From an uncultured archaeon (GTDB taxonomy: Archaea; Halobacteriota; Methanosarcinia; Methanosarcinales; Methanoperedenaceae): DNA of 64,000 nt. Under the pieces are notes generated by a model. The model searched no databases, was not told the DNA's origin, and saw nothing but the letters and a program-made list of their open reading frames with translations. The stretch's first letter is position 1; every line of letters starts with the position of its first letter. The DNA lies in NCBI GenBank assembly GCA_902386205.1, contig CABMIH010000065.1, forward strand, positions 62,001-126,000. The letters are read 5' to 3'. A program made the position numbers and the translations under genes. Shown here piece after piece: positions 3,001 to 60,772 of the stretch.

Positions 3001-3603
3001 AAGCCAAAGAATGAAGAATCTTTACCTTGGGTTGAAATCGAAGTCGCTAAGTTAAAGAAAATTCTTAGTCAGTACCCATATATAGATTTAGAAATTTTAT
3101 TCGATGAAGAAGCGACACATACAGAGGTCGTTAAGAAGTTGGGAGAAAATTATGACTTTATCCATTTTGCAGGTCACGCTTTTTATAATGAACAAGCACC
3201 TGAAAAAAGCGGTTTAATTCTATATGATAAAACACTTGAGGCTAGAGAAATCAAAATGATAGTAAAAACTCCACCATGTTTAGTTTTTCTAAATGGATGT
3301 AGCTCAGCTAAACTGGATAAAAGTTCAATAAAAAGCAAATATGCTAACTTTGTCCAGAGTAATTTATTTGCTTTCATTGAAAAGGGTTCATCAGCTATTG
3401 GTTCTATATGGCCTGTAGATGATGGACCTGCTGCAGAATTTTGCGTAGAATTTTATCAAAGATTTTTTGAAAAAATGGAATTTGGAGAAGCGATACGACT
3501 TGCAAAAAGAAAAATTTATGAAACATCCAAAGGAAATTTGGCTTGGACGTCTTATGTTCTTTATGGAGACCCTTGTGGTTATTTGGAAACTGTGCCTACG
3601 TGA
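1..3603 (+). CDS. P-loop NTPase fused to CHAT caspase-like protease (5' end outside window)
   Basis: The reading frame is open from base 1, so the true start lies upstream; 1200 codons are visible. Near the N-terminus a Walker A (GEFGSGRTT, nt 115-141, Arg in place of the usual Lys) and a Walker B (FVFIDELHK, near nt 355) mark a STAND/AAA-type ATPase. A long helical region follows. The C-terminal third is a CHAT domain: it begins near YPWELMFDG, has the catalytic His in FIHFAGHAF (His codon at 3175) and the catalytic Cys in FLNGCSSA (Cys codon at 3298), and ends with a GSIWPVDD segment. CHAT proteases in prokaryotes act in NLR-like abortive defence and cleave partner proteins. The gene is far more AT-rich than the rest of the window, suggesting horizontal transfer. 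The fusion is clear; the defence role is inferred. Confidence 0.85.
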   Translation: MEEIDILSLIVETEIVRKYNNILITDPRNLLGKSVIIFGEFGSGRTTLFSFLKGLIHREGIDSHIIRLHGSFEDSSEIEKKFLNSLFFKLTGEVREDASLLEIIEALRNKKNKIDKYFVFIDELHKNQFIQSSLEFLKNLQGIIEEINEEVNIGIMIAGRNEWRNEIINNPIYSGTFANYDEIGEMSIEDACNMVDKRIRYFHSKPEAYISFSLVTQDAIAKIYSTIEIKTPRAILRAVSRLVEAVPVSVNVITSSDIPRYLGKNILSGIRNHILAVSSVYNRLSNVETLGNRETQEKAFDLIYKIYTHPLKLPLNSSSGYDSELIIKMLGKNLLQQKQIKIPIVFDHIKIKSSEGSEKVIVVDDAIKAVFDNITEKHQVSPEDYLVTIFLNKETYTQSSQDDAKSIIKRIGGIKERLPERLEACKTWIDDSIIQYTKVTNFEINGIPKEKEYEFLLTCESAMDGILKVYYAVREDITETVSRTIFLEKILQDCDLEELNEFYQKVRISNELGTVHLDVRETIIDLFFRAYRKVVEVILGELDLGRFLALKSYYILPKEMEILRDIRSKIFDQKNYIKARSMIQFLFNEKIAEFLNFNLSVVYGIDWYEKCLPRDLASKIKQEGTIVEEQNQLQEKERIYNKLKHLDLIDVYEIIEFKILWDGFFGFVFGREYNKIYLKRFFNEIIDRLAEDEEKINHKSILNLVDRVLKLLVLMNRSMEFYLRKEQVVLLSSNTEESKILFGIRQMEKNDIKITKKEIDELEFLIKTNVRDRKFKVIRPSTPIQIGLFGYFVSKGKIVFSRCEGDKLLFEIGENFTKIIYKHKLKWRGGKCELYIANPKKDELIIQLSKPSDVTRNAPEIISLDESKIEDIFEEIERLSNYSDELFELSKGHIIKTGDLSISKKEREYNSSLVNLGSAIYNLVLKAEIRGDLESCDLPINFVIDEKLMVYPWELMFDGTNFLALKSLVGRTIVLNKRNSTPLKGWSRDGNIRFLIIGVSKPKNEESLPWVEIEVAKLKKILSQYPYIDLEILFDEEATHTEVVKKLGENYDFIHFAGHAFYNEQAPEKSGLILYDKTLEAREIKMIVKTPPCLVFLNGCSSAKLDKSSIKSKYANFVQSNLFAFIEKGSSAIGSIWPVDDGPAAEFCVEFYQRFFEKMEFGEAIRLAKRKIYETSKGNLAWTSYVLYGDPCGYLETVPT

Positions 3604-4186: not shown

Positions 4187-5689
4187 ATGGTATCCTGTTT
4201 AATTCAAAAAAAGAATAAAACTGTAGAAATGAACTTGTTTGATTTCGGCACAAAAATCAAGATTTCCTCTGAAAACCTGACCGAAAAACTCGAAACAGTA
4301 GTCCCTGAACAACAGAATACTCTATCCGAAATTGAAGCTCTCGATTTTAAACTGTCGCAGCACTTCCATAATAAGTTCATAGTGCAGCGGTCTCTGACGC
4401 GGCAACTTGTCAGCTTTCAGGCAAACAAAACCATGGCGTCTTATCGCTGGTACAAATACAAGGAAGCGTTTTCCGCTCCTCTTGTTGAGTATCTGCTTTG
4501 TCGATACGGGATTGTTTCAGGCAAAGTTTTGGATCCGTTCGCAGGGAGCGGTACGACCCTGTTTGCAGCAAGTGCTGTGGGCATGGATGTTGATGGAATC
4601 GAACTGCTCCCCATCGGCCAGCAGATCATTGCCGCCAGGTCGTGTCTGGAAAGAGAGTTTACGGCCGATGATTTTACTGCTGTCAAAAGCTGGCTGGAAA
4701 CGTGTCCATGGAAGCAATCGCAGATGAGATCTCCCCTTCCCAAACTACGAATTACAGACGGCGCGTACTCAGAAGAGACATCAGATGCAATCGAGAGGTA
4801 CATGGGCACCCTGCAGAAAGAAAACGAACGGGTTCAGCTTATCTTGCGTTTTGCTCTGCTGTGCGTCCTTGAGTCCATCAGTTACACTCGTAAAGATGGT
4901 CAATATCTTCGGTGGGATTACCGATCAGGACGCAGAAAAGGAGGAAAACCGTTCCATAAAGGAGAGATCCTTAATTTTGACATGGCAATATCTGCAAAGA
5001 TAGAGGAGATTTTGCATGACATGAAACTCAGCGGTGGACATTTAGAGGAACATACTCAGGGCAATATCCATCTTTTTCAGGGTTCATGCCTGGATGTAAT
5101 GCCAGGGCTGCCGTGTGATTCATATGATGCAATTATAACTTCTCCCCCTTACTGCAACCGTTATGACTACACCCGGACTTATGCTCTTGAACTGGCTTTG
5201 CTTGGAGTCAGCGAGAAGGATCTCCTCGACCTGCGGCAGCAAATGCTAAGCTGTACCGTTGAAAATCGGGCTAAAGACCTGCTGGCAATAAATCCCAAAT
5301 GGGCTAACGCCATAGAAGCAGCAGACCAGCAGGAGCTTCTGCAGGCTATCCTGCAGTATCTGGAAGATCTAAAAGCGCAGGGTAAGCTGAATAACACCGG
5401 CATCCCCCGCATGGTTCGAGGATACTTCTATGAAATGGCATGCATTATCGCCGAATGTTCGCGAGTGATGAAACAAAATGCATACATGTTCATGGTCAAT
5501 GACAATGTTCGTTATGCTGGCGCAAGCGTTTCAGTAGATATGATACTTTCCTCCATAGCTGAAAATCTGGGACTCCATGTAGAGAATATTCTTGTACTGC
5601 CGAATGGCAAAGGTAACAGCAGCCAGCAAATGGGGGAGCATGGGCGCGATCCTTTGCGAAAATGCGTGTATATATGGAGAAAAGAATAA
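4187..5689 (+). CDS. site-specific DNA methyltransferase (probably N4-cytosine), RM partner
   Basis: 500 residues. It transfers methyl from S-adenosylmethionine to a base in the recognition site to protect self DNA. Residues 116-124 are DPFAGSGTT (SAM-binding motif I) and residues 318-322 are TSPPY (catalytic motif IV, the form typical of N4-cytosine enzymes). The roughly 200 residues between them probably include the target-recognition region. The start is set by GAGG at 4177-4180, 6 nt before the ATG; an ATG at 4229 is an alternative. The stop overlaps the start of the endonuclease gene by one base (TAATG), so the two are translated as a pair. Target sequence is inferred from the partner (CYCGRG). 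Confidence 0.88.
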
Positions 5690-6645
5690 TGCCAGCAGAC
5701 AGACCACACCGCCAGCATTTGACCAGCAGCGAGAGCCTTGTAACAACCTATGAGGAGACACGGGCTGGTTTCGTTGCATTGGCGCTCGAAAAGAACCGAA
5801 GAGCAACGCCATTCGTTGAAGAAGCAAGGTCTTTAAAAGCAGCTGCATCTATAGCCACAACCCCTGCCTCATTGGTCGATATTGCCGGGATACAGGCTGC
5901 TCTATTGACGGCGTCAGGTGTTTCCGATAAGGCTGCTGGGCATATGGAGCAGCAAGATAAGGAGGAAGCGATACAAGGACTGATAGAACAGTTCCTTGAA
6001 CCTGCTGGACCGAACTTTGTTGAAGAGCTTGTCTTTCGATTCCTTTTGACGCGAGGGGACACATTAGGAGGATCTATGCGAAATATCGGAGGAGCAATGG
6101 CACAACGCAAACTTACTCGTGCGATTATTGCTTCTCTTTCGATTGCAGGAATTTCATATCAATGGCTTTCTTCCACGAATAACACATGGATACAAGGAAC
6201 AAGAGACGATCCTGACATTGAGTTGGATGCAAAGGGACTTAGCTGGTCAAGTAATGGTCAGAATCGGACTGTCAGATATAACCTTACTGTACCATTTTTA
6301 AGGAATAACGTAGACCTGTGCCTTTTCAATTGCACTTCTCGGGAACTTTCCGTTAGCTATGGAAATCCTATCCTTTACATTGCACTTGGAGAACTAAAAG
6401 GTGGCATCGATCCCGCCGGAGCGGACGAACACTGGAAAACAGCAAGAACATCCCTATCCCGTATACGCGAGGCCTTTGCAGAGCGTCGGCTTTCGCCTCA
6501 ATTATTTTTTGTCGGGGCCGCAATTGAAAATAGCATGGCTGAGGAAATCTGGAACCAATTGGAAGATGGCTCACTTAGCAACGCTGCCAACTTGACTGAT
6601 GCAAATCAGGTTGTTTCCCTATGCCGGTGGTTATGCAACCTGTAA
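5689..6645 (+). CDS. AvaI/BsoBI-family type II restriction endonuclease
   Basis: 318 residues, close to the family length of about 315-325. The ATG at 5689 overlaps the methylase stop (TAATG) and has GGAGA at 5676-5680; longer in-frame starts at 5662 are less likely. The active site matches BsoBI: the segment [15 protein letters not shown] gives Glu235, Lys237 and His248, and Asp209 lies 26 residues upstream. In BsoBI, as I recall, these are Asp212, Glu240, Lys242 and His253, the same spacing within two residues. AvaI and BsoBI cut CYCGRG, so this enzyme probably does too. All catalytic residues are intact, so the RM system should be active. Confidence 0.87.
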
Positions 6646-6698
6646 CTAAACTCATGAGTGAAAAAATGTCCTATAATATCCCCTTACAATCTATCTAC

Positions 6699-7112
6699 GT
6701 CCTCTCCTGCGCCCCCCTCTCCCCAAAGCCCAGCCCCCTTTCCTCCGTGCGCTCCCACCACCGCGCCCCCGCCGATAGCGAGCCTGCGCCGCACCCGATA
6801 AAAAGCGCCGTCCCGAACCGAACACGGATGACATGGGTCGGACGGATTTCCACGGATTTTCCCATGTGTGCGAATCCGCGTCATCCGTGCAATCCGTGTT
6901 CAATTGCTGCTTCGTTTTTTGTGGAGGCGCCTGAAATCCGTGACGTGATTCAACTCAAATTGCCCCAAACCATAAATCTGCGTTCATCGGCGTCATGCCC
7001 GCCGCAATGCATAGACACGTATGCCCCTGCGGGGGCATACGTGGATGCGCCCTCCAGAGGCGCGACTCTAGGCGCTTTCATCTGCGGTTTGGCTTTTGAG
7101 GATGCGCCATCA
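6699..7112. repeat. dispersed GC-rich repeat, copy B (fills most of a 674-bp gene-free stretch)
   Basis: The most complete copy. It repeats the C-rich head (6705-6800), the ACACGGATG/CATCCGTG inverted repeat (6820-6902), and the CTGCGTTCATC tail of copy A, then adds a strong hairpin (7017-7042) and a CCCTCCAGAGGC segment that copy E shares. Long open frames here on both strands are by-products of base composition. Bases 7113-7319 hold GCGAAGTACGCCAAGAGCG-like low-complexity words and no clear gene. Confidence 0.8.
7017..7042. repeat. perfect 11-bp hairpin inside repeat copy B
   Basis: ACGTATGCCCC (7017-7027), loop TGCG, GGGGCATACGT (7032-7042). In copy E the equivalent site (about 9399-9422) has a different stem sequence (ATATTGC/GCAATA core) that still pairs, so structure rather than sequence is kept. 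Confidence 0.75.
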
Positions 7113-7319
7113 TACGATCAATATGCGCATGTTCCACATGCATCTGCTGGATTTTGCGATCTTTGCGTTCTCTGCGGTGAGCAGGTTAGCACCGCGAAGT
7201 ACGCCAAGAGCGCAAAGTCGTCGCGAACAAATAACCAAAGTGACAAAGATGACAAAAATGACAAGGAAATAAGGAGATGCCTGATTATCCCACTTTAACA
7301 CCTGAGGAGAAACAAAATC

Positions 7320-7652
7320 GTGATGGAAAAAGAAGATTTACTTTTTGATGTGGTCACACCACCGGGATTCAGGATATACACTACTAAAAAATACTGGGAT
7401 TATATAATATCCGTTAAGCATCCTTATATAAATGGTATGGAATCTGATGTTATCATAACCTTAAAAAATCCGGATTTCATTCGCCAGAGCAAGATTGACA
7501 AAAATGTTTACCTGTTCTACAGGGAAATCAAATACCATGCTAAAAATTATCATATGTGTGTGGTAGTAAATAAGAGCAAAGGATTCGTTATTACAATATA
7601 TATAACAGATAGAATAAAGGAAGGTGTCCAAATATGGAAAAAATCAGAGTGA
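7320..7652 (+). CDS. small hypothetical protein, probable toxin partner of DUF2283
   Basis: 110 residues, starting at GTG 7320 or ATG 7323; GAGGAG at 7304-7309 precedes both. I do not recognise a named family with certainty. The fold pattern (alternating strands with YWDYIISVKHPYING, later KNYHMCVVVNKSKGFVIT) resembles RelE/Barnase-like small nucleases that sit upstream of DUF2283 proteins. It overlaps the next gene by 19 nt, so the two form one unit. Confidence 0.6.
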   Translation: MMEKEDLLFDVVTPPGFRIYTTKKYWDYIISVKHPYINGMESDVIITLKNPDFIRQSKIDKNVYLFYREIKYHAKNYHMCVVVNKSKGFVITIYITDRIKEGVQIWKKSE

Positions 7653-7837
7653 TAATCAACCGCGAATCAAACACACTTGATGTATGGTTCGATGATCCTG
7701 AAAAGGAGTTCATCAGCGAAGAGACCGGGGAAGAAATAATCTTGAAAAAAGATAAAAACAATAGAGTGATTGGATTTGAAAAGCTAAACCTTCTTCCCGG
7801 CGAAGAAAACGTGCCTATTGAAGTATTGACCACATGA
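7634..7837 (+). CDS. DUF2283 family protein
   Basis: 67 residues with the DUF2283 pattern: an N-terminal strand pair (NTLDVWFDDPE), then a turn and VIGFEKLNLLPG. These proteins are often the second gene of toxin-antitoxin-like pairs, which fits the overlap with the upstream gene. The antitoxin role is inferred from position. Confidence 0.75.
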   Translation: MEKIRVIINRESNTLDVWFDDPEKEFISEETGEEIILKKDKNNRVIGFEKLNLLPGEENVPIEVLTT

Positions 7838-7887
7838 AATGGCCTTGCTTGAAACTTATTCTGAAATAAAAAATCATGTACTCTGAT

Positions 7888-7990
7888 CTTTCCCCCTGCG
7901 CCCCCTTCTCGCCAAATCCCAGCTCATCCGCCCCCCGCAATTCCCTCGGCGCCGCATGCTATGCATACCAGGCCGCGCCAGCAAGCGAAG
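7888..7990. repeat. dispersed repeat, partial copy C
   Basis: Only the C-rich head is present (CCCCCTGCGCCCCCTTCTCG, then AATCCCAGC and CCGCCCCCCGCAA), between the DUF2283 gene and hicB. The AT-rich stretch just after it (7993-8003) is the likely TATA region of the hicB promoter. Confidence 0.6.
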
Positions 7991-8032
7991 AAGATGATTA
8001 TATTTAGGTGAAAAACAGATGTATATACAAAT

Positions 8033-8245
8033 ATGAGAACATTTCTTGTGTCAATTCAAAAAGAAGACAAATTCTATGTTGCAAGATGTCCCGAACTCGG
8101 TGTAACTTCACAGGGAAAAAACCTTGAAGAGGCACAGGCAAATATTAAAGAGGCTATTGAGCTTTATATCGAAAGCTTCGGAGAAGATCTGCCTCGTGAG
8201 ATATCCAAGCCGCTGTGGACCACAGTTGAAGTAGCCCATGCCTAA
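8033..8245 (+). CDS. hicB: HicB-family antitoxin, copy 1
   Basis: 70 residues with the HicB core: FLVSIQKEDKFYVARCPELG, then GVTSQGKNLEEAQANIKEAI. HicB neutralises the HicA RNase and represses its own operon. The order hicB then hicA with an 8-nt overlap is common in archaea and cyanobacteria. It has a close paralogue at 10109. Confidence 0.88.
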   Translation: MRTFLVSIQKEDKFYVARCPELGVTSQGKNLEEAQANIKEAIELYIESFGEDLPREISKPLWTTVEVAHA

Positions 8246-8465
8246 ACTGCCAGTTGTTTCAGGGAAAGAACTGATCGCTGCGCTTAAAAAGGCAGGATTC
8301 GTTGAAGTCAGGCAAAAGGGCAGCCATGTATCGCTTCAAAAAATCACACATGAGGCAACCTATAGAACCGTCGTTCCTCTGCATCAGGAGCTCGCAAAAG
8401 GGACACTTATTGATATTCTTCACCAAACAGGTTTGAGCAGGGAAGATTTGCTGGAATTGCTTTAA
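8238..8465 (+). CDS. hicA: HicA-family mRNA interferase toxin, copy 1
   Basis: 75 residues, a full-length HicA: VSGKELIAALKKAGFVEV, then the dsRNA-binding-like motif RQKGSHVSL with the catalytic His, then VVPLHQELAKGTL and a C-terminal helix. HicA cuts mRNA when free of HicB. It is intact, unlike the second copy at 10315. Confidence 0.88.
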   Translation: MPKLPVVSGKELIAALKKAGFVEVRQKGSHVSLQKITHEATYRTVVPLHQELAKGTLIDILHQTGLSREDLLELL

Positions 8466-8600
8466 ATCCCAGCCCCCTCCCCACTCGCACCTCCACCGGC
8501 GCATCCCCGCAGGCAGCGAGCCCGCGCCGCGCTGGATGAAAAGCGCCATCCGGAAGCGAACACGGATGACACGGATCGGACGAATTTTCCAGTCCTTATG
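8464..8600. repeat. dispersed repeat, partial copy D
   Basis: Begins directly at the hicA stop codon with AAATCCCAGCCCCCTCCCC, continues through GGCAGCGAGCCCGCGCCGCG and GAACACGGATGACACGGATC, and stops at the start of the inverted repeat. It is nearly identical to copy A over the middle part. Confidence 0.75.
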
Positions 8601-8640
8601 AAAATAAAGAAAGAGATTAACAGGCAATATCTGCGATTTT

Positions 8641-8850
8641 TTAAACGCTTTGCGATGCCTTATTTTTTGCGATAAGTTCCCGGATTTTTGAAACTAACTG
8701 AGTTGGGACTTCCATAGATGTTCGAGTTCTGTTACTGAAAGCATTTTCGTCTTCCGCCATGGCTTCTTCTTCAGTCTGTTGTTCATAATGAGCAAGAACC
8801 GTCCTCACTCTCTTCTCATCCCATCCTTTTGGAAATTTACATTTTTTCAT
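8641..8850 (-). CDS. small putative antitoxin
   Basis: 69 residues from ATG 8850 (a longer start at 8880 is possible). The pattern KKCKFPKGWDEKRVRTVLAH, EEEAMAEDE, then MEVPTQLVSKIRELIAK is a recurring small protein found next to toxin-like genes. It overlaps the upstream gene by 14 nt, consistent with a toxin-antitoxin pair where the second gene is the antitoxin. No DNA-binding motif is certain. Confidence 0.65.
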   Translation of the reverse strand: MKKCKFPKGWDEKRVRTVLAHYEQQTEEEAMAEDENAFSNRTRTSMEVPTQLVSKIRELIAKNKASQSV

Positions 8851-9127
8851 ATTTCTTTCGGCTCCTGCGTTTATATGCAATCAATGGTTTACCAGTTAAA
8901 TCAAATGCCGTTATGACAAAAATACTTTTTGGATCAAAATCAATAACATATATAACCTTCAAGTAACGGCCTGCTCGAGATTGACCTATGGCAACCCGGG
9001 AACCATCCTTGCCTGATCTGTCTTCCCCGGGCTTTAATAAAACATCCTCTACCTCATCTTCAGATACATGATGGGTGTAGATATGCGGCTGACCGTTTTC
9101 TGGATCGATATAATAATGGATGTTCAT
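8837..9127 (-). CDS. DUF4258/BrnT-like putative toxin
   Basis: 96 residues. A strand-rich protein with HHVSEDEVEDVLLKPGED, YLKVIYVIDFDPKSIFVITA and a basic tail YKRRSRKKYEK, matching the general shape of BrnT/DUF4258 RNase-like toxins. It is the first gene of a two-gene unit on the minus strand. Family assignment is by pattern only. Confidence 0.65.
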   Translation of the reverse strand: MNIHYYIDPENGQPHIYTHHVSEDEVEDVLLKPGEDRSGKDGSRVAIGQSRAGRYLKVIYVIDFDPKSIFVITAFDLTGKPLIAYKRRSRKKYEKM

Positions 9128-9231
9128 GTTACAGCCCCATCTTTCATAATAATTGGTGCCTTATTTTGCATTTCAAGCATATATGCATAATTACTTTAAG
9201 TCACCACGTATAATATTGATCACAACTCCCT

Positions 9232-9475
9232 TTTAAACGCTTTATCCAGCACGGCTGGCAGCAGCGCGTCCATTTCGGCGCCAGTCTATGCCTTGAGGCG
9301 CCTGGAACCCGTAACGTAATTCATTTCAAATTCGCCAAAATAATAAATCTGCGTTCATCAATGCCGAAATCCTGCGGATTCTCAACTCTGCGCCCACATA
9401 TTGCGAAGCAATACGTGTACACGCCCTCCAGAGGCATGACTCTGGGCGCTTTCATCAGCGGTTCCGTTTCTTGAA
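9232..9475. repeat. dispersed repeat, partial copy E (in a gene-free stretch of about 440 bp)
   Basis: Carries the downstream half of the element: GGCGCCTGGAACCCGTAACG (as GCGCCTGGAATCCGTAACG in copy A), AAATCTGCGTTCATC, an ATATTGC/GCAATA hairpin, then CCCTCCAGAGGC and GGGCGCTTTCATC as in copy B. Bases 9128-9231 and 9476-9526 show nothing recognisable. Confidence 0.7.
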
Positions 9476-9526
9476 GAAGCGTCTAATATTTATTGATTTT
9501 ATTTTTATTAAATTTTCAGATGCCTT

Positions 9527-9608
9527 AAAATCCCAGCTTCTCATGACTCATAGAATCCAGCCCCCCGCAAGTGTTACTGGTGCATCCCGGGCAGCGAGCC
9601 TGCGCTGT
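9527..9608. repeat. dispersed repeat, partial copy F, at the 5' end of a DUF4258 gene
   Basis: AAAATCCCAGC, CCAGCCCCCCGCAAG, GGCAGCGAGCCTGCGC: the head of the element. It ends close to 9608, where DUF4258-like coding sequence begins, so it seems to have replaced the first part of that gene. Confidence 0.65.
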
Positions 9609-9810
9609 AGACATTGAGAATGCAATAATTCAAGAAGAAATCATCGAAAAATATCATGATGACAAGCCTTATCCATCATGCCTTATATACGGAAAAGATA
9701 TGAAAGGTAAACCACTTCACGTGGTGTGTGCCTTTTCTCCTATAATCCGTATAATAACGCTTTATCGTCCAGATGAAGAAAAGTGGATAGATTATAAGAG
9801 GCGAAAATAA
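9571..9810 (+). pseudogene. DUF4258 toxin gene with 5' end replaced by repeat
   Basis: The open frame from GTG 9571 has about 12 repeat-derived codons, then a good DUF4258 C-terminal part: DIENAIIQEEIIEKYHDDKP, YPSCLIYGKDMKGKPLHVV, ITLYRPDEEKWIDYKRR. The usual N-terminal SxHAxxRxxER segment is missing, and the junction falls in repeat copy F. It lies one base before a YgiT-type antitoxin gene, its normal partner. A short product could still be made, but activity is doubtful. Confidence 0.7.
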
Positions 9811-10065
9811 ATGGAAGAGAAATGCCAGTTCTGCGGCGGCGCCGTGAAGAAAAAAACCGTCAGCCTTGACCTCTGGAAAAAGGAAAAACTGTACGTTTTC
9901 AAGAATGTGCCTGCAAAGGTATGCGAACAGTGCGGCGAAAAGTATTTTTCCTCAAAAATATATGGAATTATCGACAGGCTGTTAAAGGATAAATCAAAAC
10001 CTGACGAAACTATGATAGTTCCAGTCCTGTCATTAGAAAAATTTGCGGAAGAAGCTGTTAGTTAA
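9811..10065 (+). CDS. YgiT-type zinc-finger antitoxin
   Basis: 84 residues with two CxxC pairs (CQFCGG and CEQCGEKYFSSKI) in the YgiT/MqsA N-terminal arrangement, followed by a helical tail. Proteins of this type pair with DUF4258 toxins. It directly abuts the truncated DUF4258 gene. Confidence 0.8.
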   Translation: MEEKCQFCGGAVKKKTVSLDLWKKEKLYVFKNVPAKVCEQCGEKYFSSKIYGIIDRLLKDKSKPDETMIVPVLSLEKFAEEAVS

Positions 10066-10108
10066 TCAGAAACCTGATTTTAGATGATAAACGGATGTAA
10101 AGGCTATT

Positions 10109-10333
10109 ATGAGAACATTCCTGGTATCAATTCAGAAGGAAGATAAATTCTTGGTGGCAAGATGCCCAGAACTCGGCGTAACCTCGCAGGGAAAAATCCT
10201 TGAAGAGGCGCAAGCGAACATCAAGGAAGCTATAGAACTATATATAGAGAGTTTCTGTGAAGACCTGCCCCCCGAAATATCCAAACCTTTCTGGACAACT
10301 ATCGAAGTTTGCTTATGCCTAAACTCCCCGTGA
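10109..10333 (+). CDS. hicB: HicB-family antitoxin, copy 2
   Basis: 74 residues, close paralogue of the gene at 8033 through the whole HicB core. Compared with copy 1 there is one extra base near the end, so the reading frame runs on through VCLCLNSP instead of ending VAHA, and overlaps the hicA start by 19 nt. Confidence 0.8.
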   Translation: MRTFLVSIQKEDKFLVARCPELGVTSQGKILEEAQANIKEAIELYIESFCEDLPPEISKPFWTTIEVCLCLNSP

Positions 10334-10518
10334 TTTCAGGTAAAGAACTTTTGGTGGCACTGAAAAAAGCTGGATTTGTTGAAGTTCGTCAAAAGGGCAG
10401 TCATGTATCTCTTCAAAATATTATGCCTGTACACTTTTATCATAATCAATTCCCCACCACTCAACCACCTGCGCCCCTCACCCAACCCCAGCGCTGGAAG
10501 GGCATACCAACACTATAA
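10315..10518 (+). pseudogene. hicA: HicA toxin, copy 2, truncated by repeat
   Basis: From ATG 10315 the frame matches HicA copy 1 up to RQKGSHVSLQ (about nt 10422), keeping the catalytic His. After this the homology stops and the frame runs into repeat copy G. The C-terminal half, with the VVPLHQELAKG strand and last helix, is gone, so the toxin is very likely inactive while its antitoxin remains. Confidence 0.75.
10450..10505. repeat. dispersed repeat, partial copy G
   Basis: CACCTGCGCCCCTCACCC then AACCCCAGCGCTGG: the C-rich head only, located inside the disrupted hicA copy 2. Confidence 0.55.
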
Positions 10519-10619
10519 TTTATCATATAATGTAAGTTCTGGAGGAGTGAAACAAAATCCCTTTTCAGAAAGATTTATTAATGCCTCAGTCCTCAATCCA
10601 ATCTGGATTTACAAAAAAC

Positions 10620-12038
10620 ATGAATAAAACAATAATAATTTTTCTCATTATAGTTATCGCCGGATTTTCCATACGAATATATGATCTCGCTGAAAATCCT
10701 CTTGATTTTGATGAAAGCATACATGCTTTTACTTCATTCTTATTATTCAAAGAAGGTATTTATAATTATGAACCTGCCACCCATGGTCCTTTTCTATATT
10801 ACATTACAGCAGGGATCTTTCATGTTGCTGGAGATAATATAATGTCTGCAAGATTATTACCTGCTGTATTTGGGGGGTTGATGGTTTTATTGCTTTTTCC
10901 ATTACGCCGGTTTCTTGGAGATGTAAAATTCATCCTGATATCAGGCATGTTTGCTTTTTCATATTCTTTTATTATATTTTCCAGACAAATAAGACATGAT
11001 ATTTTCATAACCTTTTTTATACTCGCATTTTTGGCCTGTATGGTACTATTTGTTGAGGGCCATTCTAAATCATATCTTTATCTTGGATTTGCCAGTTTAG
11101 CGATAACGATGGCCATCAAACCGACAACATATATCTTCATGTTCATCCTTGTCTTTTTCCTTATTTTGAAGAAAAATATTTTTCTTCCATTTATACTGAA
11201 TTATTTAAAAAACAATAGAATTTATTCTATAATTTATATTGCATTGATCTTTATAGCTATCAATTATCTATTCTATCACGACATATCAGCCGGATTTTTT
11301 AAGATGGCCAGTACATGGATAGAAATGTACAAACTCGACTCCAATCGAAATGATTTTCTGTTTCCCCCTGTTTATTTCTATTTATTAAATCTAATAAAAT
11401 ATGAATTTCTGATTTTTGTAACTGGTTTAATTGGTTGTGTATATTATTTATCATCAAAAAAAGAAAATCACTTCATTAATTTTTGTTCTTTTTGGGCTTT
11501 ATGTTCTTTATTAATTTTTTCTATCATGGCTTATAAAACCCCTGACCTTATATTAAATATTTTATTGCCTTTTACAATCGTTTCGGGATTTTTTTTAGGT
11601 GACATAATAGATAGATTTTTTTATAAAGATAGATTGATTCTAAAACTAACAATAATCCTATTATTGATTTTATCATTATATATAAACAGTCCAATTGCCC
11701 CATCTAATGTTAATAATGAATATGAAAAGATAACAGAGTTTATAAATAAAACTGACCAGGAAAACATCTATTTCCTATCACCTCTTGGAAATTTTTTCGG
11801 TGTACAGTGGCCTCTTCCATGGTATTTGAGGGAATATAATTTATTTCAGATCGATAGTAAAGGTCATGTTATAGAGTTGGATTATTTATTTGATGAAAGA
11901 TACAATGCAAAGAAATTTGTGCGCAATTATGAAGAAAAAGGGATTATTATCACTTCGCAAAATGTAACATACATGGAAAAACTGGGATATAATAATAGTA
12001 AGCACTTTGAAAAATCTAAATTTTATATATACTATTGA
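10620..12038 (+). CDS. Agl23-like (TIGR03663) multi-span membrane glycosyltransferase
   Basis: 472 residues from ATG 10620; an ATG at 10581 adds 13 residues. It is a GT-C type membrane protein with about 10-12 hydrophobic spans. The first loop has PLDFDESIHAF and ATHGPFLYY, with acidic residues where GT-C enzymes bind metal and lipid-linked sugar. This fits the family called flippase activity-associated protein Agl23, which resembles dolichyl-phosphate-mannose protein mannosyltransferases. It probably works on lipid-linked or surface glycans at the outer face of the membrane. It is AT-rich and stands alone. Confidence 0.75.
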   Translation: MNKTIIIFLIIVIAGFSIRIYDLAENPLDFDESIHAFTSFLLFKEGIYNYEPATHGPFLYYITAGIFHVAGDNIMSARLLPAVFGGLMVLLLFPLRRFLGDVKFILISGMFAFSYSFIIFSRQIRHDIFITFFILAFLACMVLFVEGHSKSYLYLGFASLAITMAIKPTTYIFMFILVFFLILKKNIFLPFILNYLKNNRIYSIIYIALIFIAINYLFYHDISAGFFKMASTWIEMYKLDSNRNDFLFPPVYFYLLNLIKYEFLIFVTGLIGCVYYLSSKKENHFINFCSFWALCSLLIFSIMAYKTPDLILNILLPFTIVSGFFLGDIIDRFFYKDRLILKLTIILLLILSLYINSPIAPSNVNNEYEKITEFINKTDQENIYFLSPLGNFFGVQWPLPWYLREYNLFQIDSKGHVIELDYLFDERYNAKKFVRNYEEKGIIITSQNVTYMEKLGYNNSKHFEKSKFYIYY

Positions 12039-32400: not shown

Positions 32401-35115
32401 TTACCTATAACCTATATAAGACTTCTGTTCCTGTTTTGTCCCGCCTTTGAATTGCTCCTGCAGCTTCTCATAATATTCGATCATGCCTTCCACGAGGGCA
32501 GGCCTGACTTTCTTCAATGAATCGCGGAAATGCCTCATTTCAATTTTCTCAGCATTGAAATCTTCCCGCAGCGCAAGCATCACGGCCTCCCTGCATAGCG
32601 ACTCAATATCCGATCCTACATAATTATCAGTAAGATCAGCAAGTTCTTCCAGGTTCACATCATCCGAAAGCGGGATATTTTTCAGGTGTATCCTGAATAT
32701 CTCCACCCTTCCGGCCCTTGCAGGCGGGCCCACAAAAACCAGCCTGTCGAACCTGCCTGAACGGATAAGGGCCGGATCAACGATCTCGGGCCTGTTTGTC
32801 GCCGCTATCACCACGACATTCTTCAGGACTTCAATTCCATCAAGCTCGGTCAGCAACTGGTTAACAACACGCTCAGATGCTTTTGAGCCAAAATCCATGC
32901 CCCTGATGGGGGCAATTGCATCAAGTTCGTCAAGGAACAGTATCGACGGCGCAACCTGCCTGGCTTTCTTGAAAACCTCGCGGACGGCCTTTTCTGATTC
33001 CCCTATCCATTTGGACAAAAGCTGCGGTCCCCTTATACTTATGAAATTGGCTGAACTTTCATTAGCAGCAGCTTTGGCAAGAAGTGTTTTGCCGGTGCCA
33101 GGCGGGCCGTAAAGGAGAATTCCTTTCGGGGGCCTGATCCCCATTTTCCTGAATTTCTCCGGCTTTTTAAGAGGCCATTCCACAGCCTCTATGATCTCCT
33201 GTTTTGCTTCATCAAGGCCCCCCACATCCTCCCACGCGACTTTCGGGATTTCAACCATCACTTCTCTCATCGCTGAAGGCTCGACATCCTTTAGCGCTTC
33301 TTCAAAATCACTTGCCTTCACCTGCATGCTATTAAGTATTTCGCGCGGAACTGCTTCATCAAGTTTTATCTGGGGAAGATATCTCCTGAGCGCTTTCATA
33401 GCTGCCTCGCGCACAAGGGCCGATATATCGGCACCCACGAACCCATGTGTTACCGAAGCGAGGTGATCCAGCATATGCGGGGCGGAATCTTCAATAACCT
33501 TCTTGAAATATCCATCTGAAACCACGCCTGACTCAAAAAGCGTTTCTTCGATCTCCCTGATTTTTTTATCCTTTTGTTTGATATGTTTTTCGGAAAATGT
33601 GATGGAAACATCTTCAAGTTCCCTCTCACTTGTTTGCCGGATCTCGTTTATATCAGCCAGTAAGGTTTCGAGAATATTCCTTTTTTCCTTTAATGTTTCA
33701 TTGATCTTATTAATAGAGTGGATTTCTTTCTCTAATTTTTTATTATTATTCTTATGAGTTTCGATATTTTTTTCCAGGTCATCTATCCTGGATTTCAGGT
33801 GTTTCAGTTGATCCTGTTTATCCTGTCCGTCTTTTATGTCGTTTAATTCATTTTCGATTTTACTTTTTTCAGATATCAGGATCTCAATCTTCAAAGTGTT
33901 TTCAGATATTCGCGTTTTCGAATTATTCTCAAAGGATGCAATCCTTTCCATAAGTTTTTTTTCCGCGATATCGTTTTCCCAGTGATAAATCGGCATGCCT
34001 CGCGAATGTATCTGGAGGATTTCAAGCCTGTCAGCCAGGTCAGGCACCCCTATTTCAATCTCGCGGTCAAACCTGCCCGGACGGCGAAGCGCGGGGTCGA
34101 TAGCATCGATGCGGTTCGTAGCCCCAATCACCACCACCTGCCCTCTCTCTTCCATGCCATCCATCATTGTAAGGAGCTGGGCCACAACCCTTCTTTCGAC
34201 TTCCCCGGTCACCTCTTCCCTTTTGGGAGCGATGGAATCCAGTTCATCTATGAAAATAATGGATGGGGCATCTTTTTTTGCCTGTTCGAAGATCTCGCGC
34301 AGCCTCTGTTCGCTCTCACCATAGTACTTGCTCATTATCTCAGGGCCGGCTATGGAACAGAAGTTTGCGCCAGATTCATTTGCCACTGCCCTGGCTATCA
34401 GGGTTTTCCCTGTTCCCGGAGGGCCGTACATCAACACCCCTTTCGGGGATTCGATCCCCAGCCTTTCAAATACTTCGGGATGTTTCAATGGCAGTTCGAT
34501 CATCTCGCGAAGGCGCTGGATCTCTTCGCTTAAACCACCAATGTCCTCATAGGTTATCCCTGTCCCCGTGACATCAACCACCACGGGTTTTTCCCTGAGC
34601 TTGATATCTGTTTCTTCAGTGATGAGAATTATGCCTTCGGGCTCGGCCTCGATGGCGATCAGGGGAATCGTCTGGCCCGTTACCACGCGCCCGAGGAAAG
34701 GATGGGCCATTGTGCTCATTACCGGAATAATATCACCTTTGGTGATCGGGCGTTTCATTATCTGCCGCTTTACCATATCCTCCGCTTCCCCCCCGAACTG
34801 GATGGACGTGCCTTCAGGCGGCGCAAGAACCACTTTATCTGCGATCTTGACCTCGGCTTTCTTTATCTTTACGGGGTCGCCGATACCTGCGCTTGCATTC
34901 TGCCTTATGAAACCGTCAATGCGTATGATATCCTGGTCCCAGTCTATCCTGTCGGCACGCCAGACTTTTGCAGATGTACGCCTTTTGCCTTCGATCTCAA
35001 CAATGTCTCCCGGTGTAAGCTGTAACACCATCAATGTGTGCGGGTCAAGACGCGCTATCCCTCTTCCTGAATCGTTCGGGTATGCTTTCGCAACCGTTAG
35101 CTGTATCTCATCCAT
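32401..35115 (-). CDS. cdc48: CDC48/VCP-type AAA ATPase with coiled-coil insertion in D1
   Basis: 904 residues against about 730-760 for usual archaeal CDC48/VAT. N-domain (1-180), D1 Walker A GPPGTGKT (231-238) and FIDE (288-291), D2 Walker A (670-677) and FLDE (727-730), arginine fingers RRPGRFD and IRSGRFD. Between IHSRGMPI (370-376) and the D1 lid helix [19 protein letters not shown] (549-567) there are about 165 extra residues, mainly a charged coiled coil (residues 378-545). CDC48 unfolds proteins for degradation; the insertion may recruit substrates. Confidence 0.93.
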
Positions 35116-55225: not shown

Positions 55226-58200
55226 CTAGCCTGTAGTTACGCTGTTTGATATACCAGAGGGTGTTGAGTTGGCGGCCATGTTCGGATAGCCGACTGAAGG
55301 AGCCGGGTATACCGTGGTGTCGCCGACAATGTTGGTGGCGATTACCTGGTAGTAGTATGTTGTCTTCCTTGCGACCGTCGTGTCGGTGTAAGTAACCGCG
55401 TTACCCTTTGTTGGTCCAGTTGCGGATTTCACCATTGTTACAGTTGTCCACGGGCCGGTAGCTGAGGTTGCTCTCTGGATAGTGAATCCAACCTCGTTCG
55501 TAGAGTTATCAACCCATGTCAGTCTAACGCCCGGGTTTTTTGTAGTGCCGCTTAAAGTGGCTGTCAGGTTGTAAGGAGCATTTGGTGTGACCGAAATTAT
55601 CATTGGGCGCATCATAATGTTCTCTTCATGGCCCAGCAGGTGGCAGTGCCAGACGTATTCCCAGCCATAGTTGATTAGATGGTTGGTTACAGTTACCGGA
55701 TTATTACTTGGGTCGACGGCAGCGTAAAGGGTGCTTGCCCCGAACTGTGTTGTCGTGCCCAGTGGCGCTGTGACATCCATGGGACGAATGCTATTGGGAA
55801 GATCGAAGGGGACATTGGGCGTTATCGGCCGCATCGCCACGATGATATCTTCCAGCGGGTTCATAATGACGGTTTCCTTCCAGCCCAGCTCGTTATCATT
55901 TGGCGGTTTAACAGCCCCATCCCAGCCAACCCGGTTGATCAGCTGCACGTTGAACATGTGCCAGTGTATGGCATGGGTATCAACGCCGTTGTGCGTGATC
56001 TTCCAGATCTGTGTCCCATCCGCAAGCGTTCCTAGGGGAGCCATAGCGTCCGAGTTCTTGAAGATCTCGGTGGGCGAATCGATGTCAGTGTAGGGAATCG
56101 TCGTCTGGATACCAGCGGTGGTAAAGGGCATTTCGACCCCAAGCAGGGCATTCATGCGTCCGTAGTCAGGGTCAAACAGCTCCTGGATGGCCTTTGACTG
56201 CATCGCCATCGTTAACACAATGCTGGCAGTGGCCGTTGCAGTTGTGCCGCTGGTCGGGGATGCAATGGTTACAGCAGGATCAGAGGTATAACCAGAGCCT
56301 CCGCTCGTTAGCGTGATCGTCTTAACTGCACCAGCTGTTGCTAATACCGCAGCAGCAGTAGCGCCTGTGCCCCCACCACCCGTGATGGTAACGGTTGGAG
56401 CAGAGGTATAACCTGAACCTGCGTTCGTAACCGTGATGCCAGTCACTCGTCCACTTGCTACCGTTGCTGTAGCAGTAGCGCCTGTACCGCCGCCACCCGT
56501 GATGGTAACGGTTGGAGCAGAGGTATAACGAGAGCCTCTGTTCGTAACCGTTATGCTAGCAACTCCAAAACCTAATGTTGCGGTTGCTGTTGCAGTGGTT
56601 CCGGTCGTTGGTGCCGAGATGGTAACGGCTGGTGCGGTCGTATAACCTGAACCTCCGTTGGTTATGGTGATACTCCTGACAGGCTGAGTAGGAGCAGCTG
56701 GCAAGAAGGTCATGGAAGTGTACTGGATTCTCGCCCACGCATCAACTGGATAAGTCGCACCGAAAGCAGCATTATAAGAGGCTTGCGGCACCAGAGGCTT
56801 ATCCTGGGACTGACCGTAGGCTACCGGCAACGCTGCCTGCAACCCGGCCAGATTGTATGGCGCGGCAGGAGTTCCCGCTACACGGATTTGCATGATGGTG
56901 CGTGTATTTGGACCAAAGCCCGGCAGGGTCGAAGGTGCACCGCCCGTTTGTGTATTGTCCGGGTCGGCCGTGTAGTAGTCATTTCGCGGGTCAAACGCCG
57001 GGACAGGCGCAGGTGCGTCGTTATAGAGAATCAGAGTCTTGCCGGCATATGCGGAGAAGTCAACGATGACATCCGCCCGCTCAGCCGGGCCAAGGAAAAG
57101 TGCCTTTTCCAGGACATTCAAGACCGTTATGCTTCTGCGGTTGTAGTCATAGCCGACTGGCCTGTTGGGGATCACAACCGGTGCAGGCAGGAACCCGCCT
57201 TCAGTGCCGATCTGGATTATTGATGGGCCCATCATGGCAGGATCCGGCCAACCTCCATCTCTTCCATCTGGCGTCGGCCAGCCCGCCGGCCAGTTCCCCG
57301 GTACCGTTGGAATCATCCCAACTTCTGTCGGAGTGCTGTATACTGTTGCTACGGCAGTAGCAGTTACACCGCCAACCGATGTGGGTGGGGCTATAGTGAC
57401 AGTTGGAGTAGCTGTGTAGCCGCTGCCTACGGTCAAAATGGTGATGCCGGTAACTTGACCAAAAGTGGGGCTGCTAACATTTGTGTCTATCGTTGCTGCA
57501 GCAGTAGCGCCCTTGCCGGTAATATCACCCGCAGCGGGCGTGATGGTGACAACAGGAACAGAGGTATAGCCACTGCCTCCCCCGGTTACTGCGATGCTAC
57601 CAACGATAGTGCTTGCTTGATACAACTGCAGGTTGAGCATCCGATCATTAGCAGCATTCAGGATGCGGAACCGATACGCCTTCGGCTGCACCGTTAGGAA
57701 GGGGTAAACTGCACCATTGACCACAGCGGTGTCCACGAAGGCTTCGGGCACAATGGATGGATTAGGTGTCGCTGGGTTTTGTGGATTTTCACCTGGAGGA
57801 CAGGTGGGGTTGCATAAGGGGTTCGGGACAAGCGGATTGGTTGTGGGGAATACGGGCCAGAACCAGGGACCATAATCCCACCGGCCCATGGCGTTTGCCC
57901 CTCCAAGGTCAGATGGGTTCTGGTTCGGCATATAGACATGGGGGAACCAGAGGTCGCCCGTTTTTGGCGCCCGTATCCCGGTAATCGGGTCTTTTGTTCC
58001 TGTTCCCCAGTTCCAGGTAGGATCCTGTGAGCCTATTGTTGTGGCATCCACGAAGGTCTTGTCCTGGATGACCAGAGGAATCTGGTCAGCAGGAATGGTT
58101 CCAGCAGCTACCGATGTAGTAGTTCCCGGGATTATCCCGCCATTGATCAGTGCTTGTTCTACGGTGTCGGTCTCAAGGTAAGCCGCGGCCTCTCCGGCAT

Positions 58201-60436
58201 AGACATTGAGGCGGGTAATTCCATAGGCATGATCGTGGTAGAACATGAGCCTGGCGCTTTGCTGGTTAGTGTAGTAAAACGTCAGCGATCCATTGCCTGG
58301 ATTGTTCGTCGCTCCCGCTGTTCCCTGGGGCACTGTCAGATGGGTTGCAGGATCAAACCACATGTCAGGAACATATCCCACACTGACGCCCTTGGGATAG
58401 GAAGTCGTTTCTCCCGCGGGTGTGATCCACTGGTGCTGCGTCCCATCGCTGATCCACGGCGTGTTGCCCCCATGAAGATGGAGAGTGGCGCGGTTCTGCG
58501 AGAAATTGCCGCTGATCAAGGAACTGGGTGTCGCAATATCGCCAATGGTGAACATTCCGGCCCCCATGACTGTGGTGTCCACAGGCAGGAAGAGGTCGCC
58601 ACCGGCATTAGCCGGGAGATAGTTGATGAACTTGACGCGCACCGGTCTGTCCTTATTGGCAATGATAAGAGGCCCTAGATAGTGAGGGCTATCCACCGCG
58701 CGAACTACCACCCCGTTCCTCACAATAGCAGTGCCATTCGGGTAAAACAGCGGGACACTTTTGCTGGATCCCAGATTGACCGGTGTTTCCAGCTGCACAT
58801 AGCCCCGCAGTGTGGTGGGGGGAAGATCCGAATGCATCTTCTCCGTATACTGGACCAGCGCGATTTCGTAATAATCAGATCCCGGATATGTCGTGTTATC
58901 TGCCACGGCAATTGGTATATACTGACCGAGGTTATTTGCGCCACCTGGTGTCAGGCCAGGAAGTGAGTCCACAAATTTGCGGATGCCACCGCTGACGTAG
59001 CCAGAACCTCCGCTTACAAGCGTAAGGGCACTTACAACATCAGTTGTGATAGCTGCTGTAGCAGCAGCTCCGGTGCCGGCACCCGTGAAGCTGACAGCAG
59101 GCGCAGAGGTATAACCTGAGCCTCCGCTGGTTATAGTGATAGAATTAACAGTATCCATGGTCACAGTCGCTGTAGCTGTAGCGCCTGTGCCTGCACTATC
59201 ACTAATGGTGACGGTAGGCGCAGAAGTGTAGCCTGCACCTCCGCCCGTTAGCGTGATGCCGGTAACTGATATTGTTGCTGATGCTGCAGCGTTTGTGCCT
59301 GTGCCTGCACTATCAGTAATGGTGACGGTAGGCGCAGAAGTGTAACCTGCACCAGGGGTGATAATCGTTATGGCGGTAATGGCGCCAGTTATATCTGTTG
59401 ATGCTGTGGCAGTAGCGTCTGTCGTGGCGCCACCACCGGTAATGGTGACAACAGGGGTGGTGTAACCTGAGCCTGCAGTTGTGACAGCAATGGCGTCAAC
59501 GGCTCCTGTTGTCGTAGCACTAGCTCCACCAGCACCTGAGAAGGTGACAGTAGGAGCTGTATAACCCGCGCCTGGAGTACCCAACGTAAGAGCGTCAACG
59601 GCTCCTGTTGCCGTAGCACTGGCTCCACCAGCTCCAGAGAATGTGACTGTAGGAGCGGTATAACCTGCGCCTGGGGTACCAAGCGTAAGGGAAGTGACAG
59701 GCCCTGCTACGATCGCATCCGCAGCAGCACCTGTGCCACCCCCACCTGTGAAGACAACAGCGGGAGCTGAGGTATAACCAGAACCTCCATTAGTAACCGT
59801 GATGGCGGTGACGGCACCTGCTACGGTTGCTGTGGCAAAAGCGCCTGTGCCAGCACCACCCGTGATACTGACTGTGGGAACAGAGGTATAACCAGAACCT
59901 CCGTTTATGAGCGTGAGACCGGTAACCACACCATTCACTACGGTCGCTGAAGCAGTGGCGGTAGTTCCAGACGATGGTGCCGAAATAGTTACGGCAGCGT
60001 CACTTACTGGCATTGGGCTATTGGCGTAGTTGGGTATAATGCCAAAATAGTCGGGCGTCCCACCTGGATTCATCGTTGGCACTGCAGGCGCGATGATCCC
60101 TGCGGCCTTACGAGCCGCTGCAGCGCGATCTGCTGCGGCCTTCCTCTCAGCGCCTGTCATTTTGGGTTTAGTACGAATATTGGATTTAGTCTTATCCTGA
60201 GCATTGGGATTGCTCTGCGTATCGGGCGCAACGTTTGCACCCTGGGACTGGCTGTCCGGTGTGGTTACCGCGTTGCCGGATGCAGGGCCGTCGCTCGTAC
60301 TGGCAACACTGCCGTTAATTAACAATATTGCAAATAGTATTCCGGCAATAAGCAATATTTCGACAAATCCAATGCCTGCATTGATTTTTCTCCTTGCGTT
60401 ACGTTTTTTATTGGCTGATATATTCCTTAATTTCAT
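55226..60436 (-). CDS. giant surface multicopper oxidase with GSGYTSAP repeats
   Basis: 1736 residues, about three times a normal multicopper oxidase. N-terminal membrane anchor/signal ([20 protein letters not shown]), Ala/Lys-rich linker, then nine repeats of about 35-45 residues with the core [16 protein letters not shown]. All four copper motifs are intact: HLHGG (near residue 649), YHDHAYG (730), HAIHWHMF (about 1486) and [10 protein letters not shown] with a following Met (about 1594), so T1 and the T2/T3 cluster are predicted. Two more repeat blocks (2 and 4 units) interrupt the oxidase. A fibronectin-III domain ends the protein. Possibly extracellular metal oxidation or electron transfer. 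Confidence 0.88.
56200..56690 (-). repeat. GSGYT repeat block 3 in multicopper oxidase (4 units)
   Basis: Four units ([36 protein letters not shown]) of about 100-130 bp lie between the [10 protein letters not shown] and [18 protein letters not shown] parts of the oxidase. Two neighbouring units are nearly identical in DNA. Confidence 0.85.
57340..57610 (-). repeat. GSGYT repeat block 2 in multicopper oxidase (2 units)
   Basis: Two units ([18 protein letters not shown]) inserted between [10 protein letters not shown] and [12 protein letters not shown] of the second cupredoxin region. Confidence 0.85.
58990..60000 (-). repeat. GSGYT repeat block 1 in multicopper oxidase (9 units)
   Basis: Nine units before the first copper motif. 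The two [18 protein letters not shown] units (about 59490-59700) are almost identical in DNA, a sign of recent unit duplication. Confidence 0.88.
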
Positions 60437-60772
60437 ATCCTTCTCCCTTCTTTTTTCCTAATTACATCGTGACAATTGTATCGAAATGGTAACCTAATCC
60501 TATCTCAATACCATCGTCATACCCCTATCAATCCATTACTATGCGGCAAAGCATAATAGTGAATGAATATCTAACATCTCGTTTTTTGTAACCCAATGTT
60601 TTTATGGTCGCTCCAATCTTATTTTTGCTCCAAAGATACTAACTCCACATCAAATGAGCAAAGTTACTATGTCTCTTTTTCATATAAATAGATAACTGTT
60701 AATAATGATATTACCGATGCCTGAAGATTACTTTTGAGTCCCGAAAATATTGAACTTATGAAAAAAACAGAT
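60437..60772. other. 336-bp gene-free stretch before the multicopper oxidase gene
   Basis: AT-rich and without a credible gene. It must carry the minus-strand promoter of the multicopper oxidase; GGGAGAAGGATATG-like sequence next to its ATG (60437-60450 on the minus strand) is the ribosome site. Nothing else seen. Confidence 0.5.

Follow-up and report, generated by a model that had tools for sequence, protein, structure and literature searches.

A giant multicopper oxidase of a Methanoperedenaceae archaeon with a phage-virion-type repeat at three sites of a CotA-like core

Among the closest described systems to the gene considered here are the giant multicopper oxidases (MCOs) OmpB, reported as necessary for the reduction of insoluble Fe(III) oxides, and MofA, a putative manganese oxidase; the ompB/mofA gene clusters also include MofC-like and SCO1 genes (PMC5566968). 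OmpB/MofA-like enzymes are candidate agents of biological iron and manganese cycling, and their non-catalytic bulk is undescribed. Here we analyze a stretch of 64,000 nucleotides (hereafter, the window) from an uncultured Methanoperedenaceae archaeon, contig CABMIH010000065.1 of assembly GCA_902386205.1. On its minus strand, positions 55226..60436 hold the gene of a giant MCO of 1736 aa, P0001, with an ATG start and no internal stop. With somewhat more confidence than doubt, we read P0001 as an exported, CotA-fold MCO of the OmpB/MofA-like family, probably acquired from bacteria by one Methanoperedens lineage, in which three permissive sites have been filled with a phage-virion-type module. 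What is new is a three-site rule that holds across the family, together with the link to repeats of phage virions.

The oxidase core and its termini

The four copper motifs of P0001, all located on the minus strand by motif search and family alignment, are HLHG (aa 653-656, 58469..58480), YHDHA (aa 733-737, 58226..58240), HAIHWH (aa 1488-1493, 55958..55975) and a 12-residue motif (aa 1597-1608, 55613..55648) containing the T1 Cys 1598 and the axial Met 1608. An earlier, sequence-only reading of this DNA held that all copper ligands are intact, and this is borne out: the ten His, the Cys and the axial Met are all present and aligned with the family columns. Across the homologue alignment the His and Cys ligands hardly vary, being retained in 67-69 of 69 sequences. 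The axial T1 position (window 55613-55615) is occupied by Met in 48 and by Phe in 19 of the 69 homologues, with Met in P0001, a difference predicted to make the T1 redox potential differ within the family.

The best sequence match of P0001 is CotA laccase (2.3e-32), and a Foldseek search with the AlphaFold2 model of aa 481-1640 (pLDDT 84, pTM 0.84) likewise returned CotA as the best fold match (TM 0.82, normalised by target). Structure prediction, proposed earlier as a check, modelled the core well. Judged from alignment and model, P0001 is a three-domain, CotA-like MCO with a predicted three-cupredoxin fold. It is not a PhsA equivalog, because its NCBIfam PhsA score is 105.6 bits against a curated cutoff of 950.

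Behind a basic N-terminal region lies a single long hydrophobic stretch (aa ~21-45, 60302..60376, minus strand), identified from the sequence and resembling the N-termini of congeners. This is the membrane anchor of the earlier reading, and at this position a signal peptide and an anchor are indistinguishable; in either case P0001 is probably exported. The proposed Fn3 end (aa 1619-1736, 55229..55582, minus strand) emerges at the level of profiles only: a six-sequence profile of the tail matches Fn3 domains in PDB, but a Pfam scan of the single P0001 sequence gave no Fn3 match.

Three permissive sites and one repeat unit

The repeat unit is a β-strand-rich segment of ~33-40 residues with the pattern GxGYTxxPxVxI. 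Our motif count agrees with the 15 units in blocks of 9, 2 and 4 reported earlier, with GxGYT-type motifs at aa 180, 218, 256, 289, 322, 362, 400, 439 and 477 in the first block, 954 and 1004 in the second, and 1262, 1301, 1340 and 1380 in the third; the ninth (GSGYV, aa 477) belongs to a truncated unit at the block junction, and one motif of the third block reads GSRYT. Site A (aa 147-482, 58991..59998, minus strand), with nine motifs, lies between PNYANSP and GGIRKFVD, upstream of domain 1. Site B (aa 947-1040, 57317..57598, minus strand), with two motifs, is inserted in a loop of domain 2 (flanked by CotA residues 272 and 291), and site C (aa 1256-1410, 56207..56671, minus strand), with four, in a loop early in domain 3 (flanked by CotA residues 321 and 405). 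The alignment with CotA agrees with the view that repeats stand both before and within the oxidase domains. Blocks B and C, as part of the AlphaFold2 core model, have a local pLDDT of about 85-95.

Relatives were collected by genome-collection scans seeded with P0001, which yielded 183 relatives, with 78 loci kept. They come from Ca. Methanoperedens, Anaeromyxobacter, Geobacter/Geomonas, Nitrospirae, Chloroflexi, Neobacillus, Methylococcaceae, Comamonadaceae, Planctomycetes and others, and bacterial homologues of many phyla carry the unit in the same three sites, which gives no support to an architecture special to the source archaeon. P0001 thus belongs to a large, widespread and poorly described family branch and is not one archaeon's curiosity. 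Among 85 long members, 257 of the 292 motif matches fall inside the three sites; motif density per 1000 aa reaches 5.9 on the N side, 7.4 at site B and 14.0 at site C, against 0.48 in domain 1, 0.22 in domain 2, 0.00 in domain 3 and 0.45 in the tail, a distribution far removed from chance. At least one unit is present at site A in 25 proteins, at site B in 30 and at site C in 30, whereas 28 have none, a count that takes in three short outgroup oxidases; within it, P0001 alone has all three sites filled. The core tree requires at least 10 changes for site A, 17 for B and 12 for C. From these counts and minimum changes we conclude that all three are permissive sites that have gained and lost units on many occasions.

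Repeat number among homologues ranges from 0 to more than 30. The most extreme array is that of a Dehalococcoidia homologue of 4057 aa (L084, 5563-17733), with about 31 units at site A. One genome carries tandem giant MCO genes of 1463 and 2223 aa with unlike repeat content (L040/L041, contig 97 of G018), and in two others a second, diverged MCO of ~1280 aa lies directly downstream (L039 in G017, L044 in G021).

Such variation in number is what a loosely constrained insert would show, and it bears on an alternative in which P0001 is a protective oxidase, scavenging O2 or detoxifying copper, phenolics or Fe(II) in a methanotroph that meets O2, with the repeats as neutral loop passengers. MCOs usually reduce O2, and the accessory distribution of these genes also fits (any MCO match in 18 of 60 relatives, the giant type in fewer). 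However, the limitation of the insertions to three sites and the retention of GxGYTxxPxVxI across phyla suggest selection on the module, and the size of the protein and its Fn3 tail exceed the needs of a scavenger. We consider this alternative unlikely.

Near-identical neighboring units had been taken as a sign of recent expansion. Units 256 and 289 in site A are a clear tandem duplication, with a 99-bp period (59493..59689, minus strand) at 88% DNA identity and 85% aa identity, but for 11 of the 13 P0001 units tested, the closest unit is found in another protein; both block B units are closest to block B of a Chloroflexi homologue (L074). Recent local expansion is therefore limited. Across 289 units, nearest units from the same protein and site are enriched (23 observed versus 6.7 expected), yet for 263 the closest unit lies in another protein, so local duplication occurs without dominating.

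A repetitive gene in a metagenome-assembled genome (MAG) of 88 contigs also raises the question of units duplicated, or a chimeric gene produced, by short-read misassembly. We rejected this explanation, which we regard as highly improbable: the longest exact DNA repeat in the gene, located in a second unit pair, is 37 bp, much shorter than a typical read; no stop codon interrupts the frame; and the same layout recurs in independent MAGs and in complete bacterial chromosomes.

Kinship with phage virion repeats

A known Pfam repeat was considered and rejected, as the Pfam search returned no model for the unit; a PDB sequence search found no matching chain, and a text search of the literature for the motif found no match. 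Likewise rejected was a spread of the unit through other surface proteins of the source genome, where it was found solely in the P0001 gene; in the source genome and the Methanoperedens relatives tested, no copy was found outside these oxidases.

The closest kin of the repeat are in phage particles. Block A matches PHROG virion families, namely, phrog_701 (head; 5.5e-48), phrog_708 and phrog_2885 (baseplate), phrog_460 (head closure) and others, and shuffled and reversed block A controls matched no PHROG family. A tblastn search of phages and plasmids with the native 160-aa block gave no match; a three-unit consensus retrieved 170 phage records, chiefly from cyanophages, with weak E-values. 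Foldseek comparisons with viral models align two-unit stretches to within 0.8-2.5 Å across some 80 columns (44-46% identity); one of these superpositions, with a predicted phage protein, reaches 0.8 Å over 79 columns at 44% identity, both structures being models. By profile and predicted structure, the P0001 repeat is the same unit as the virion repeats of T4-like cyanophages. This also bears on the earlier concern that homologues might reveal a common unrelated linker: the unit is indeed common, occurring in cyanophage virion proteins, but within the Methanoperedens genomes checked, it is confined to oxidases.

Because the unit is found in phage virions as well as in the loops of an exported enzyme, the repeats are most likely a rigid, exposed, β-rich display or spacer module. 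A bolder and rather doubtful extension is a mobile surface-display module common to phage virions and metal-active MCOs, repeatedly plugged into three fixed loops, with arrays exchanged between distant oxidases, providing each lineage with a tunable adhesive coat around a conserved catalytic body.

In a separate observation, two IMG/VR contigs from different metagenomes (184,707 and 56,445 bp) encode MofA/OmpB-like MCOs of 1646 and 1737 aa (L057 (=L138), 5025-11521, and L139, 4692-11397; best segment 68% identical), each followed immediately by a MofC-like protein with cytochrome c and Peripla_BP_6 domains. Genes for a baseplate wedge (E 7.7e-290), a baseplate hub and a DNA polymerase identify the larger contig as a phage, making the MofA-like MCO and MofC-like cytochrome a putative phage-borne metal-oxidase pair; a limited literature search turned up no publication on a phage MofA.

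Origin, possible role and comparison with known systems

In the tree of core sequences, most Methanoperedens copies form a main clade (8 rows, support 99) that groups with Neobacillus and an Actinomycetota sequence (support 97), whereas of the other Methanoperedens copies L086 lies beside gammaproteobacterial sequences and L038/L039/L044 beside Chloroflexi sequences. This pattern suggests at least three acquisitions by transfer into Methanoperedens, although MAG binning errors are possible for single loci. The direction, from bacteria to archaea, is taken from the much wider bacterial spread, and the P0001 gene is probably of bacterial origin. The site A array of P0001 stands closer to that of L086 (71%) than to those of its core sisters L058/L079 (55-58%). 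A clade of P0001 and L086 is rejected by the core (p-AU 0.0001), but the array is statistically compatible with the core topology (p-AU 0.067); exchange of arrays, leaving a mosaic site A, is therefore only suggested. A Bathyarchaeota-labelled contig (L065) carries both the short and the giant Methanoperedens MCO types and is possibly a mis-binned Methanoperedens contig.

If P0001 is an exported oxidase with a displayed repeat module, as we favor, the enzyme would act outside the cell membrane, where its T1 copper would take electrons from a reduced extracellular substrate, such as Fe(II), Mn(II), phenolics or a redox partner, and hand them on to the trinuclear site. The repeats would project from the catalytic body, leaving it undisturbed, and could serve as rigid spacers or as an adhesive surface binding the enzyme to the cell envelope, matrix or mineral, while their number would drift through duplication, loss and perhaps recombination. 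With O2 as the usual acceptor, the likeliest setting would be an oxic-anoxic edge; OmpB nevertheless offers a precedent for a protein of this kind in an anaerobe that reduces Fe(III). Metal or extracellular redox activity, as suggested by the earlier reading and here, is an inference, as is the placement at the cell surface or in an S-layer that the earlier reading proposed.

Several observations weigh against this account. Use of O2 is awkward in a strict anaerobe. Bacterial members, including those at Geobacter-type loci, often have genes nearby for a SCO1 chaperone and for a MofC-like protein that combines cytochrome c with a periplasmic binding domain, as in the published ompB/mofA clusters; it is by these neighborhoods of its relatives that P0001 is provisionally placed in the broad OmpB/MofA-like family, with homology to the type proteins presumed. 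No SCO1 or MofC relative is recognizable near the gene or in the source genome, which accordingly lacks the bacterial partner set (the MofC query finds homologues in 3 of 4 other genomes), and P0001 has no EXXE motif, reported for OmpB. Given this missing set, we take the catalysis to be that of an extracellular oxidase and leave the substrate unspecified. AlphaFold2 modelled the nine-unit block alone poorly (pLDDT 43), and, the scans having been seeded with P0001, the site statistics hold for its own subfamily.

The same partner genes bear on the idea that P0001, in the manner of OmpB, takes part in outward electron transfer to oxides of Fe(III) and Mn(IV) without O2, with the repeats and Fn3 tail binding mineral. 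Methanoperedens species do reduce iron and manganese oxides (PMC8280799). Nevertheless, the missing EXXE motif and MofC/SCO1 genes, the lack of a multihaem cytochrome gene adjoining the P0001 gene in the window and the absence of a full-length giant MCO from most congeners sampled make this proposal quite improbable.

The P0001 gene is flanked by ordinary chromosomal genes, with TrpRS adjoining and ftsZ and a CDC48-like ATPase more distant, on a contig of at least 126 kb. The source genome (G000; 2.79 Mb, 88 contigs, 95% complete) contains one other MCO group, represented by a plain MCO of 728 aa whose N-terminus is of the Tat type. The host had been described as a methane-oxidising archaeon, and the nearest named relatives of P0001 do include Ca. 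Methanoperedens MAGs. A purine-rich run resembling a ribosome-binding site lies just upstream of the start codon (together 60434..60450, minus strand). The GC content of the gene is about 0.55, compared with 0.42-0.45 in the flanks, and its strand skew is opposite to that of neighboring minus-strand genes; both features count in favor of our reading. Elsewhere in the window, the CDC48-like AAA ATPase (32401-35115) has a charged, coiled-coil-like insertion of ~190 aa within its first AAA module, beginning directly behind a 10-residue segment, and a 1115-aa protein in a low-GC region (0.29-0.31; 256-3603) has a CHAT-like C-terminal segment (HFAGHAF...LNGCSSA).

These findings suggest that anaerobic methane-oxidising archaea have received such oxidases repeatedly by transfer and draw attention to an unannotated repeat, for which no Pfam model and no solved structure were found. 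Much of the bulk of these enzymes is a defined module, common to phage particles and confined to three permissive loops, which offers clear test constructs.

Like P0001, OmpB of Geobacter sulfurreducens and MofA of Leptothrix discophora are very long MCOs with an Fn3-like tail and a predicted extracellular location, and MofC-like and SCO1-like neighborhoods are seen at the Geobacter- and Comamonadaceae-type homologues of P0001. P0001 differs from both in its archaeal host and in lacking MofB, MofC and SCO1 neighbors and EXXE, and the literature found makes no mention of three-site GxGYT repeats in OmpB/MofA. CotA laccase, bilirubin oxidase and PhsA have the copper ligand set and three-cupredoxin fold in common with P0001, which is about three times longer, with three repeat blocks inserted. 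With the virion repeats of T4-like cyanophages (PHROG 701, 708, 460, 2885 and others) P0001 has the unit itself in common, but while the phages carry it in head, baseplate and tail proteins, in P0001 it is part of an enzyme.
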